From assembly GCA_020974905.1 (NCBI GenBank), contig CP087563.1, positions 372,001 to 436,000 on the forward strand: DNA of 64,000 bases, read 5' to 3'. The notes under the pieces are model-generated. The model was not told the origin of the DNA and did no database searches. It was given only the letters and a program-made list of their open reading frames with translations. Below are positions 59,644 to 64,000 of the stretch, in pieces (positions within the stretch are counted from its first letter, which is position 1; each line of letters begins with the position of its first letter). Source of the stretch: Planctomycetes bacterium syqfu. GTDB lineage: Bacteria; Planctomycetota; Phycisphaerae; Phycisphaerales; Phycisphaeraceae. The position numbers and the translations under genes were made by a program.

Positions 59644-60969
59644 TTACTTGAGCTCGAATATTTTCAAATCACGGTATTTTGCTTGCATCCAGCGCATCTG
59701 CCGTAAGCCGATTTTCCCACCGCCATGAATTGGACCATAGGCTTTACCATCGTCGATGAAGTCGAGAATCGTCTTGCCATCGACATTGATCACGATATGC
59801 CCTCCATCTTTCATCATCATGACCTGATGCGGATCAGTACTGCCGGGAGTGATACCCGGAGCACCATTAGAGACCAGGTAAAAGCCGGAGTTTTTCCGGA
59901 GATTGGTGGTGATACGGCCTGGGTTAAACGGCGTGTTGGCATAGTAGGAGAAGTGATAGCAATTGATATCACTTTGAATGTACTGTTTGAAAACACCATC
60001 ACGCTTCTTGATGCTTGGATCGAAAATGTCTTTGCCGTTGACACCTTTGGCTGCAAAGAACGTGATACAAAGACCTGCTTCGGAGATGGGTTGCATGGTC
60101 CATTGTGCAACGAAATTCTCAGGTAAATCATGAGGCATCCAATAGACGATATGCCCATTGATCTCGGAATCATCGTTGGCAGCGGTGGAGACCATGGTCA
60201 TGCCGTTTTCGTCATAGCTGACTTTGCCTGGTCCTTCCATGATCCAGCCTTGGGTATCTGCGGGTTGGGTCATGGCGAAGCTGTAAAGCTCATGGCCCTT
60301 GCGGCTGGCAATGTCGACGGTGGGCTTGAATTTGCCGCCCAGATTCTCAGCCATGTTGCTGCGGTATTTTTCGGGAAGCTCTTTGAGCAGTTCTTCAGCG
60401 GATTCACATTCGGTCGAGTTAAAGATATCTGCGTAAGCCAGTGGGGACTGATGAAGTGTCAATTGCCTTGCATAACCCATTCGCCACGGATCGAGTTTGG
60501 TTCCCTCCAGTCGCAGGGGGGTACCGTTGAGATAACCGGTAAAGATGCCGTTTGTAGCATCCCAGCGATAGGCCACGTGATACCAGGCAGGTCCGGGCAG
60601 GCTTGGTATCTGAATATTGAGGTTGTCGACGCCTTTGACATTTTTATCCCACTGCCAGATGAGCATGACGCGACCGTTGGCAGCCTGCATGCGGATTTCA
60701 TACAGTCCTTCGACCGAGATGATGGGGATTCTGACGTTGGGAAAATCGGATGATCCCCCGTACGTTTTGTCGGTCTTGATCCAGAATGCAACCGAACCAG
60801 TATTACGTGTTTCGACTTTCATTTCCTTATCTTCGTCGGTGAGTATATAGCCTTGCATGCCATTGACCGGGCCATCGACAAAGGTTGTCTTGCTGGAAGC
60901 AGACTGGTTTAAAGACATCAACAAAATCAGACATAAAGTGAGTGTTAAACTCATTGAGCGCATAATCAT
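59644..60969 (-). CDS. Exported protein with LamG-like and DUF1961 (YesU-like) domains
   Basis: A 441-residue protein with a signal peptide (LTLCLILLMSLNQSASS). A LamG/concanavalin-like domain (about 45-200, with GSVAFWIKTDKT and WYHVAYRWDATNGIFTGYLNG) is followed by a DUF1961 domain (about 225-440: HIVYWMPHDLPENFVAQW; CYHFSYYANTPFNPGRITTNLRKNSGFYLVSNG). YesU-like proteins occur in pectin-degradation loci. It is convergent with the glycan cluster. Exact activity unknown. Confidence 0.85.
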   Translation of the reverse strand: MIMRSMSLTLTLCLILLMSLNQSASSKTTFVDGPVNGMQGYILTDEDKEMKVETRNTGSVAFWIKTDKTYGGSSDFPNVRIPIISVEGLYEIRMQAANGRVMLIWQWDKNVKGVDNLNIQIPSLPGPAWYHVAYRWDATNGIFTGYLNGTPLRLEGTKLDPWRMGYARQLTLHQSPLAYADIFNSTECESAEELLKELPEKYRSNMAENLGGKFKPTVDIASRKGHELYSFAMTQPADTQGWIMEGPGKVSYDENGMTMVSTAANDDSEINGHIVYWMPHDLPENFVAQWTMQPISEAGLCITFFAAKGVNGKDIFDPSIKKRDGVFKQYIQSDINCYHFSYYANTPFNPGRITTNLRKNSGFYLVSNGAPGITPGSTDPHQVMMMKDGGHIVINVDGKTILDFIDDGKAYGPIHGGGKIGLRQMRWMQAKYRDLKIFELK

Positions 60970-61027
60970 TCTCCACGATGCTGCGATAGCAAACGTCTGC
61001 GAAAAGGGAATGTTCAGTGTACCGTGA

Positions 61028-62632
61028 TTAGACGGTTTCCATCAAATGGTAGGTCAAAGCAGACGTGATGGCTTCCCATGAAGCGTCCACGATATTTTCG
61101 TTAACGCCGATGGTGTTGATCATGCGACGCTTGCCATTGACTTCCGTACGGAAGGTGATAATGACGCGCACCTTGGCAGCGGACTCGGCGGTGGGGTTGA
61201 CCACGCGGACTTTGTAGTCATCCAGGTGGACATTCTTGATCTGCGGGTAATGCGGGACAAGGCTCTTTCGCAGTGCACCGTCCAAGGCATTGACCGGGCC
61301 GTCACCTTCAGCCACATGATGTTCGACCTGGCCGTTAACCGTCATCTTGACGATGCCTTCGGTGGTGGTCGGTTCGTGATCTCGCTTGAGTATGACGCAG
61401 CGATAGTGGTCCATTTCCCAGAAGGACTTTTTCGTGCCCATGACTTCATGAAGCAGTAACTCGAAGCTGGCTTCTGCTGCTTCAAACTGGTAACCCTGAT
61501 GTTCGAGGTCCTGGATTTTTTCCAACACCTTGCGTTGCATCTCACGGTTATCCGCGATGTTGAATTTCTCACCGAGTGTCGCAGCGATGTTGCTGGCACC
61601 AGAGAGTTCGCTGACCAGGATGCGACGGGTGTTGCCCACCGATTCGGGACTCACGTGTTCGTAACTGTGTGCCACGCGCTGGACAGCATGAACATGCATG
61701 CCCCCCTTGTGAGCAAAGGCACCGGTACCGACATAGGGTTGGCCGGACTGCGGGCTGAGGTTGGCCAGTTCATACACATACCGACTGGTTTCGGTGAGTT
61801 TGGGCAGGGCGTTTTCAGCAAGACAGGTAAAGCGATCGCCCATCTTCAAACGGAGGTTGGCAGCAACGGTGATCAGGTCTGCATTGCCGGTGCGTTCGCC
61901 GATGCCGTTGATGGTGCCTTGAACCTGCAGACACCCGCCTTCGACCGCAGCCAACGAGTTGGCGGTTGCCAGACCACCATCATTATGCGTATGGATACCA
62001 AGTTTGACTTCGGTTGGCAGGTCCAGTTGTTCCTGGATTTTTCGGACGGTCAGCATGATCCAGCTGGGCAGCGAACCGCCGTTGGTATCACAGAAGATCA
62101 ATCGCGTCGCCCCGCCTTCGATGGCAGCCTGCAGGGTTTGCAGCGCATATTCCGGGTTGGCTTTAAAGCCATCGAAAAAGTGCTCAGCATCGTAAAAGAC
62201 TTCGGCACCGGAGGACTTGCAGAAAGACACGGAGTCTTTGATCATCTCCAGGTTTTCTTCACGGCTGACGCGCAGGACTTCATCGACATGCAGATCCCAT
62301 GTCTTGCCCACGATGGTGATGACAGGCGCCTTAGAGTTGACGAGGGCCTGCATGCCAACATCTTCGGAAGCTTTGATGCCACGACGACGCGTCATGCCGA
62401 ACGCACAGACCTTGGCATGTTTGAGATTCAGTTCCTGAACCTGTTCAAAGTAGGCCACGTCCTTGGGATTGGAAAGCGGGTATCCGCCTTCAATGTAGTC
62501 CACACCGATGCCGTCGAGGTGTTCGGTAATCTTGAGCTTGTCGACCAGGGACAAATTGACGCCCTGGCCCTGCGTACCATCGCGGAGGGTCGTATCGTAG
62601 ATTTCGACATAAGAAGGTTGTGCATCGGTCAT
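61028..62632 (-). CDS. cimA: Citramalate synthase
   Basis: A 534-residue CimA, which condenses pyruvate and acetyl-CoA to (R)-citramalate, the first step of the threonine-independent isoleucine route. The HMGL-like barrel has YDTTLRDGTQGQGVN, IFCDTNGGSLP and GIHTHNDGGLATANSLAA; the C-terminal LeuA-type regulatory domain begins near residue 390. The start at 62632 follows GGAAC. An Ile-rich leader peptide and terminator hairpin lie upstream, which fits isoleucine control. Confidence 0.93.
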   Translation of the reverse strand: MTDAQPSYVEIYDTTLRDGTQGQGVNLSLVDKLKITEHLDGIGVDYIEGGYPLSNPKDVAYFEQVQELNLKHAKVCAFGMTRRRGIKASEDVGMQALVNSKAPVITIVGKTWDLHVDEVLRVSREENLEMIKDSVSFCKSSGAEVFYDAEHFFDGFKANPEYALQTLQAAIEGGATRLIFCDTNGGSLPSWIMLTVRKIQEQLDLPTEVKLGIHTHNDGGLATANSLAAVEGGCLQVQGTINGIGERTGNADLITVAANLRLKMGDRFTCLAENALPKLTETSRYVYELANLSPQSGQPYVGTGAFAHKGGMHVHAVQRVAHSYEHVSPESVGNTRRILVSELSGASNIAATLGEKFNIADNREMQRKVLEKIQDLEHQGYQFEAAEASFELLLHEVMGTKKSFWEMDHYRCVILKRDHEPTTTEGIVKMTVNGQVEHHVAEGDGPVNALDGALRKSLVPHYPQIKNVHLDDYKVRVVNPTAESAAKVRVIITFRTEVNGKRRMINTIGVNENIVDASWEAITSALTYHLMETV

Positions 62633-62671
62633 TTTCAAAGTTCCATCTTGGTTTTGCGGACGGATAAGGTA

Positions 62672-62701
62672 ACAAAAAAACCCTGCTTTGCAGCAGGGTT
62701 G
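62672..62701 (-). terminator. Attenuator terminator in the cimA leader
   Basis: Perfect 9-bp stem AACCCTGCT/AGCAGGGTT with a 4-nt loop, followed on the minus strand by TTTTTTT. It lies between the leader peptide and cimA with no gene of its own to end, so it probably works as an attenuator. Confidence 0.8.
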
Positions 62702-62738
62702 TGAGTTCTGTTTTGATTTCAGAATTGCAGCACAGGCC

Positions 62739-62801
62739 CTACCGCGGTTGCGGAGTGCTAATAATCATGCTGGCAATAATGATGGTTTGTGATTGATTCA
62801 T
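62739..62801 (-). CDS. cimA leader peptide, Ile-rich (20 codons)
   Basis: ATG at 62801 opens a 20-codon frame containing TIIIASMII: five Ile codons in runs of three and two. The stop TAG is at 62739-62741, 37 nt before the terminator hairpin. This is the layout of ilv/leu-type attenuator leaders. A -10-like TACAAT lies 8 nt before the ATG. Confidence 0.75.
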   Translation of the reverse strand: MNQSQTIIIASMIISTPQPR

Positions 62802-62809
62802 CGTGGCAA

Positions 62810-62837
62810 ATTGTAGCACTTTTAAACTTCGGAGCAA
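62810..62837 (-). promoter_or_regulatory. Candidate promoter of the cimA leader
   Basis: On the minus strand TTGCTC (62832-62837) and TACAAT (62810-62815) are 16 nt apart. The start site would fall 1-3 nt before the leader ATG. AGTGCTA overlapping the -10 box is repeated inverted at 62754-62760. Confidence 0.45.
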
Positions 62838-63010
62838 GTCGGTCTTTTTGGTATATCGCCCTGCTACCTGACCTTGCATTAAAAATGTCGTTTTCAGTCT
62901 ATCTTATTTGATTTGTGTCTTTTGTTGGTAAATGGTTCAATACCGCATATCATGCTGAAGTTAATGTCTGCATGCATGGACGCTTAAAGACTTTAAGACA
63001 AATTTACCTC

Positions 63011-64000
63011 ATGAACGACACGCAAAAATCCAATCCTACGTCTCATACTCACGCGATGCCTGTGTATCGCCCGATGCTCTATGGTTTTGCCATGCTAAGT
63101 GTCATTGCCGTTCTGGGCTTATTGGCATTGGGTGGCACGGTGACCAGTAAAACCGCAGGGATGGCGGTCCCCGATTGGCCGCAGACCTTTGATTACAACA
63201 TGTTCCTTTTCCCCATCTCGATGTGGAAAGGTGGCGTCTTCTGGGAACACACCCATCGCCTCTGGGCCAGTGGTGTCGGATTCCTGGCGATCATCTTATG
63301 TGTCTGGTTATGGATCACTGAGAAGAACCGACGTTGGATGGCGTGGCTTGGAACCGGTCTTTTGATCATGGTCATCATCCAGGGCATCCTCGGTGGGGTT
63401 CGCGTCACTGAAATCGACTGGCGTTTCGGCATTGTTCACGGGATTCTCGGGCAGTTATATTTCTGCTTTGTGATTCTGGCATGTGCGGCATTGGGCAAAC
63501 GCTGGTTGGATAAGCCCCCTGCGGATGTCGATGCAGGCAAACTCGCCAAGCCGATCCGTATGGGTTGGATTCTGCTTGGCGTGTTGTTGGTACAACTGTC
63601 ACTGGGCGCTGCGATGCGACACAGTGGCGCTGGACTGAGCGTGCCGGACTTCCCCACGTTTTATGGCAGTTTCGTGCCCCCGACTTCTCAAGAGCAACTT
63701 GACGATGCCATCATCGAACATGAAGTCGATGTGCAGCACGACAAAAACGGTGAAGTGGTCCACTTCAAGCTTTGGCATGTTTACCTGCATACGGCTCATC
63801 GTCTCTGGGCAATTGCTGTGATTGTGCATGTGTTGCTGTTGGTCAAGGCATTGAAAGATTCAATCTCAAGTCTGCCGAATCTCTCCAAGCCGGTGATAGC
63901 GATGCTGGGCTTGCTGTTGGTCCAACTGACGCTGGGCATGCTGGTGATCTGGACGGGGAAACATCCTGAGATTTCCACTGCACACCAATTTGTCGGTGCC
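63011..64000 (+). CDS. ctaA: Heme A synthase (CtaA/COX15), 3' end outside the window
   Basis: The frame is open from ATG 63011 to the window edge, 330 codons. Membrane helices alternate with the conserved histidine motifs EHTHRLWA, GIVHGILGQ, LHTAHRLW and TAHQFVG, which ligate heme in the two four-helix bundles. Heme A synthase oxidises heme O to heme A for cytochrome oxidase. An insert of ~40 residues with many acidic residues lies before the third His. The protein implies an aa3-type oxidase and aerobic respiration. Confidence 0.93.
   Translation, partial: MNDTQKSNPTSHTHAMPVYRPMLYGFAMLSVIAVLGLLALGGTVTSKTAGMAVPDWPQTFDYNMFLFPISMWKGGVFWEHTHRLWASGVGFLAIILCVWLWITEKNRRWMAWLGTGLLIMVIIQGILGGVRVTEIDWRFGIVHGILGQLYFCFVILACAALGKRWLDKPPADVDAGKLAKPIRMGWILLGVLLVQLSLGAAMRHSGAGLSVPDFPTFYGSFVPPTSQEQLDDAIIEHEVDVQHDKNGEVVHFKLWHVYLHTAHRLWAIAVIVHVLLLVKALKDSISSLPNLSKPVIAMLGLLLVQLTLGMLVIWTGKHPEISTAHQFVGA

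Follow-up and report, generated by a model that had tools for sequence, protein, structure and literature searches.

The classic leader-peptide attenuators are those of E. coli trp, his, leu and ilvGMEDA, together with that of the synthetase genes pheST. Before the Firmicutes case of Naville and Gautheret, by their own account, leader-peptide systems were known only from Proteobacteria and Actinobacteria (PMC2965389). The leader mRNA of S. meliloti trpL begins directly with the leader ATG (PMC7298713), and actinobacterial ileS is under the control of a translational T-box (PMC1262725). Our analysis of the window (the whole 64,000-nucleotide stretch of planctomycete DNA presented above) indicates that the leader of its cimA gene is very probably a ribosome-mediated (leader-peptide) transcription attenuator, which would sense charged tRNA-Ile and control cimA. 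Its parts, in the order of transcription, are as follows.

62832..62837, minus strand: -35-like TTGCTC; CTTGC(T/C) is seen about 16-18 nt 5' of the -10 box in many relatives
62810..62815, minus strand: -10 box TACAAT, 8 nt 5' of the leader ATG, its position conserved in relatives
62739..62801, minus strand: leader peptide ORF of 20 codons, MNQSQTIIIASMIISTPQPR and stop, with Ile clusters conserved in relatives
62767..62782, minus strand: segment 1, the leader strand (Ile codons included) of a leader/post-stop helix predicted by co-transcriptional folding
62737..62745, minus strand: antiterminator 5' strand GCGGTAGGG across the TAG stop, pairing with 62698-62690
62719..62733, minus strand: post-stop partner of segment 1, also from co-transcriptional folding
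62690..62698, minus strand: shared arm CCCTGCTGC, which is the antiterminator 3' strand and also the terminator 5' arm with part of the loop (pairing tests)
62674..62700, minus strand: intrinsic terminator AACCCTGCT-GCAA-AGCAGGGTT with T-run, a 9-bp hairpin (folding and covariation)
61028..62632, minus strand: cimA, (R)-citramalate synthase (TIGR00977 at 649.6 bits against a cut-off of 450; PF00682 and PF08502)

The cimA gene starts with the ATG at 62632 (minus strand), and its product, in which a LeuA-type allosteric domain is present, catalyses the committing step of isoleucine synthesis by way of citramalate. The domain through which biosynthetic threonine deaminase is regulated, PF00585, was not found in the window genome (a deaminase without PF00585 could escape this search) and is present in only 2 of the 46 genomes searched, E. 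coli and the other controls being positive; its scarcity is consistent with CimA being the main isoleucine route. A COX15/CtaA protein gene (ctaA) lies on the other side of the leader in divergent orientation, so the terminator cannot serve as the end of an upstream gene on the minus strand. The gene 3' of cimA (window 59644-60969, minus strand), which encodes a DUF1961 domain and a laminin-G-like domain, is unrelated to the attenuator.

The spacer between TTGCTC and TACAAT is 16 nt. A sigma-70 promoter scan called no promoter at the cimA leader, because the -35 element is weak and falls below the threshold of the scanner. Among 62 cimA and ileS leaders there are 50 matches to TANNNT ending 6-10 nt 5' of the leader start, against a background of about one match per distance elsewhere in the same 62 leaders, and only 9 of the 62 have an SD-like motif. 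Given this -10 spacing and the few SD-like motifs, transcription is expected to start at or next to the leader AUG, and the cimA leader mRNA is thus probably leaderless. The S. meliloti trpL attenuator is a precedent for such an mRNA start at the leader ATG, although it differs from the cimA leader in its Trp codons, its target trpE(G) and its alphaproteobacterial host.

The leader ORF extends from the ATG at 62801 to the TAG stop at 62741-62739, and its Ile codons are ATC ATT ATT and, later, ATT ATT. The comparison set consisted of the upstream regions (500 bases at most) of 119 distinct cimA genes. Short ORFs with 4 or more Ile within 9 residues are present in 49 of these 119 upstream regions, where 2.3 are expected from dinucleotide shuffles; among the tabulated amino acids Ile is the most strongly enriched, and Val is clearly enriched too, more weakly. 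The combination of an Ile-cluster ORF with a terminator downstream of it is present in 55 of the 119, in none of 20 shuffled sets and nowhere on the reverse strand, and for the window upstream region alone this arrangement arises in 1 of 2000 dinucleotide shuffles. At most loci 5-8 codons separate the last Ile codon from the stop, and the residues of the leader peptide beyond the Ile run are not conserved in an alignment of 31 sequences (A1). Leader Ile codons are ATT (99), ATC (73) and ATA (3), and the corresponding counts for cimA coding sequences from the same group are ATT (61), ATC (523) and ATA (17); that is, AUU is preferred in the leaders and avoided by the cimA coding sequences. ATT and ATC are normally decoded by one tRNA, ATT through wobble, and the AUU bias of the leaders fits codon choice for slow decoding. 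A few family members (L023, L025, L030, L113, L116, L119 and L120) do not have the element. At the cimA of G035 (L112) the promoter and GGTAGGC are kept, no terminator was found and the degenerate leader is free of Ile codons; this locus looks like a decayed attenuator.

The terminator hairpin folds at -15.4 kcal/mol (z -4.6; 0 of 200 shuffles equally stable) and the antiterminator hairpin alone at -21 kcal/mol (z -3.1). In the predicted antiterminator GCGGUAGGG (62745-62737) pairs with CCCUGCUGC (62698-62690) and so extends into the terminator loop. The most conserved leader segment, GGTAGGGC, imitates the terminator 3' arm and is able to pair with the terminator 5' arm, and the TAG stop is inside this segment in nearly all of the 31 sequences of A1. 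With kinship ignored, the terminator and antiterminator, which have one arm in common, both covary in 31 Phycisphaerales cimA leaders: the covariation score is 0.241 against 0.177 for the terminator and 0.145 against 0.086 for the antiterminator (0 of 500 shuffles as high in each case), and the antiterminator has 18 double-changed cells against 9.2 when shuffled. Pre-stop bases also track terminator-loop bases that are unconstrained by the terminator itself (42 of 68 paired against 26.8 permuted, p 5e-5, kinship ignored), and the Phycisphaerales leaders' own antiterminator duplexes are better than permuted ones (p 2e-4, n=37, kinship ignored). The stop is mostly 30-46 nt 5' of the terminator in Phycisphaerales. 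The leader/post-stop helix is predicted more tentatively than these two helices, since it is only moderately better than shuffles: similar helices are predicted in many relatives, with a mean z of -1.1 over 31 leaders from folding scores.

The initial annotation had placed a -10-like box, a 20-codon ORF with five Ile codons, a 9-bp terminator with a T-run and then cimA on the minus strand, and we find all of these. Its reading of them as an isoleucine attenuator is borne out by the relatives, in which Ile codons, hairpin and spacing are kept, base pairs covary and the switch is also present at ileS; relatives lacking Ile codons in the leader had been named as the result that would count against it, and the Ile clusters proved to be conserved. 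As to competing structures, it saw the terminator but missed the antiterminator strand that overlaps the stop codon. An inverted AGTGCTA/TAGCACT pair that it had pointed out is literally present, with its first half in the promoter, but is not conserved, being absent from the same-genus loci L004 and L005; a role for it as operator or switch was rejected and we regard it as incidental. The TAGCACT half can pair with post-stop GTGCT within the predicted leader/post-stop helix.

Leader, terminator, antiterminator, covariation, spacing, AUU bias and recurrence at ileS are read directly from the sequences, and from them we infer the following transcript start, leader translation, ribosome stalling and direction of response. 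Transcription would start at or a few bases from the leader AUG, and a ribosome would load onto the leaderless end. With ample Ile-tRNA the ribosome would get to the UAG stop and cover GCGGUAGGG (a ribosome footprint extends up to 12 nt beyond the stop codon; PMC4833913), the terminator would form and transcription would stop before cimA. With scarce Ile-tRNA it would stall at the Ile codons, 5-8 codons before reaching the stop, and open the leader/post-stop helix, and GCGGUAGGG, left free, would capture CCCUGCUGC, no terminator would form and cimA would be transcribed. The geometry of the leader agrees with this, in that GCGGUAGGG should be free when a ribosome is on the Ile codons and masked when one is at the stop. 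If there were no translation at all, the leader/post-stop helix would hide GCGGUAGGG and termination would be the default.

The leader ORF is short and rich in codons for the end product of the pathway, an intrinsic terminator lies between it and the structural gene, and covariation and permutation tests point to an antiterminator that competes with the terminator, its masking by the ribosome being suggested by geometry. These core sequence features of attenuators are present in the cimA leader, a protector helix favouring termination in untranslated leaders is predicted, and the function of the leader as an attenuator is strongly suggested. No Rfam family reached threshold for the cimA leader, which is expected if the element is undescribed and gives no positive support, and a search of 60900-64000 for an Rfam T-box with E values up to 1 gave no match. 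Rfam Trp_leader (RF00513) scored 24.5 bits, below its gathering cut-off of 41; identity with that family was rejected, and we take the match to reflect a shared layout only.

Only cimA leaders went into an RNA model (R1), whose source sequences therefore match by construction; it matches at 40 bits or more in 41 of 51 family genomes. R1 also matches upstream of the isoleucyl-tRNA synthetase gene (ileS) in many relatives, the genes being located by TIGR00392 positions and tblastn. Ile leader, terminator and antiterminator occur together in 27 ileS rows, which represent 25 distinct loci, and the rows' own pairs are better than permuted ones (p 2e-4, kinship ignored); most of these loci were found through R1, so the layout is partly a matter of selection, and what is independent of it is the gene context. 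An attenuator was expected at the window genome's own ileS (L169) and this was rejected, none being present there or at ileS in the same-genus genomes examined. Upstream of leuA in the window genome (L122), and also in relatives, there is a Leu leader laid out like that of cimA and ending in LLGLLLLSVRG before its stop, with an GCGGATAGG-type strand and a terminator, so that the control amino acid follows the pathway. This Leu-rich leader, MKQQTTYSNIHSDSKDLLGLLLLSVRG and stop (G000:C1:6948900-6949900, 5' of the leuA-like gene G000:C1:6949818), is conserved in L201, L202, L206 and L209-L212. The initial annotation's "lone cimA" thus stands as a planctomycete cimA with an attenuator but not as an isolated one, since ileS of relatives (Ile) and leuA (Leu) have putative ones too.

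Other short ORFs were noticed. A Val-rich one, MCNKANNLVLNVVTLPLVVSAVAVVVS and stop, is 5' of ilvB (L219, G000:C1:3955149-3956861; also L220 and L223), with a -10-like box 9 nt 5' of its ATG and no intrinsic terminator seen. Upstream of trpE in G037 (L232), from another family of the order, is a short ORF with a WWWRW run, and the window genome's trpE has no short ORF of this type. R1 matches of 31-37 bits that are not beside cimA, ileS or leuA are at G050:C12:32557-32668 (L194), G009:C21:58524-58638 (L191) and G025:C4:8473-8592 (L193); matches below about 40 bits were assigned to genes only in part.

In the whole phylum R1 finds matches in only 10 of 392 genomes, because it is specific to the Phycisphaerales arms. 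The cimA leaders of Gimesia, Thalassoglobus, Pirellulales and Gemmataceae follow the same logic with arms of unrelated sequence; arms in other planctomycetes include CTTGAGG/CCTCAGG and CTTCGGGGT/ACCCCGAAG. In the non-Phycisphaerales planctomycetes alone the leaders' own antiterminator pairs are again better than permuted ones (p 2e-4, n=18, kinship ignored). A further set, nearly all from one other planctomycete family (mostly f32, not close Gemmata relatives), has an Ile leader and terminator in 19 of 23 cimA upstream regions. We think it likely that leader-peptide attenuators occur throughout the Planctomycetota, mostly leaderless in Phycisphaerales, with Ile leaders at cimA and ileS, Leu leaders at leuA, and perhaps Val at ilvB and Trp at trpE. 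In Gemmataceae and relatives (cimA of L069, L072, L076 and L092) there are leaders with Val, Ile and Thr codons (ending in AIIGVVVVITTG and stop) with a terminator and antiterminator, which possibly represent multivalent control. The argument that transcription and translation are segregated has drawn on the Gemmataceae, such segregation having been reported for Gemmata (Gottshall 2014, in the passages of PMC5394234 and PMC5287468 that cite it). Conserved attenuators, if they work as proposed here, speak against a strict separation, at least where these transcripts are concerned. This type of attenuation needs a translating ribosome close behind RNA polymerase, and so the cimA leader offers a concrete and cheap test of disputed planctomycete cell biology.

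Could the arrangement be explained otherwise? That a meaningless short ORF happens to lie beside an ordinary terminator has next to no probability: shuffled sequences do give about 0.5 terminator-like matches per 500 bases, but ORF and terminator occur together in 55 of 119 upstream regions, in no shuffled set and nowhere on the reverse strand, both helices covary, the same element is found at ileS, and with ctaA divergent there is no upstream gene on the minus strand for the terminator to end. The comparative data have already refuted this reading. It is also quite improbable that the conservation reflects a leader peptide or short terminated RNA that acts in trans, and not attenuation, since conservation is seen in the Ile codons, stop spacing and pairing but not in the rest of the peptide. 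The peTrpL peptide and rnTrpL RNA of S. meliloti do work in trans (PMC7298713), and a trans role in addition to attenuation could exist here.

Regulated termination that involves no coupled ribosome stalling (for example, by a leader-binding protein or by direct, T-box-like binding of tRNA-Ile) would suit the facts that transcription-translation coupling is unproven in planctomycetes and that spatial separation has been proposed for Gemmata. It is nevertheless very improbable in view of the open-frame Ile codons at a conserved 5-8 codons from a stop in or beside the antiterminator strand, the switch of the leuA leader codons to Leu, the AUU bias, and the lack of a T-box or other Rfam match at threshold. 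Short-distance leader genes are enriched in Planctomycetes, and reinitiation has been proposed for leader genes near structural genes (PMC4833913), but some 100 nt, which include the terminator, separate the leader stop from the start of cimA, and reinitiation needs neither the Ile codons nor the terminator nor the antiterminator; that the leader ORF mainly boosts cimA translation in this way is extremely improbable.

Leader-peptide attenuation at cimA, by comparison, would turn the gene on only under isoleucine shortage, and it predicts regulation of isoleucine synthesis in organisms seemingly without a regulated threonine deaminase. Models of the R1 type should be useful for annotating leader ORFs overlooked by gene callers. 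Such attenuation is known in kind, and we found no earlier report of it in the phylum Planctomycetota or with cimA and ileS as targets; nothing in the open-access literature searched links citramalate synthase or ileS attenuation to Planctomycetota, and priority is not certain.

The E. coli attenuators are like the cimA leader in having a leader ORF with control codons, a stop placed so that the terminating ribosome would mask the antiterminator strand, and competing terminator and antiterminator; their protector helix, which forms when there is no translation, has a predicted counterpart at cimA. The cimA leader differs from them in its phylum, its targets (cimA and ileS), its probably leaderless mRNA, its lack of an Rfam sequence family and the position of its UAG stop inside the antiterminator strand. 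The ilvB attenuators of C. glutamicum and other actinobacteria share a branched-chain leader peptide, terminator and antiterminator with it (PMC11857589, PMC1262725), but their target is ilvBNC. For ileS, the bacillal hisS/hisZ leaders of Naville and Gautheret (2010) are similar in being leader-peptide attenuators 5' of an aminoacyl-tRNA synthetase gene, but have His codons and belong to Firmicutes (PMC2965389). The Caulobacter CDS CCNA_03934 is, like the ileS leaders, a short CDS upstream of ileS; in the relevant passage of PMC4117421 it is mentioned as a control only, with attenuation and Ile content not stated there. In Firmicutes and Actinobacteria ileS is a T-box target, and the attenuators described here would extend leader-peptide attenuation to the Planctomycetota and add ileS, together with cimA, to its targets.
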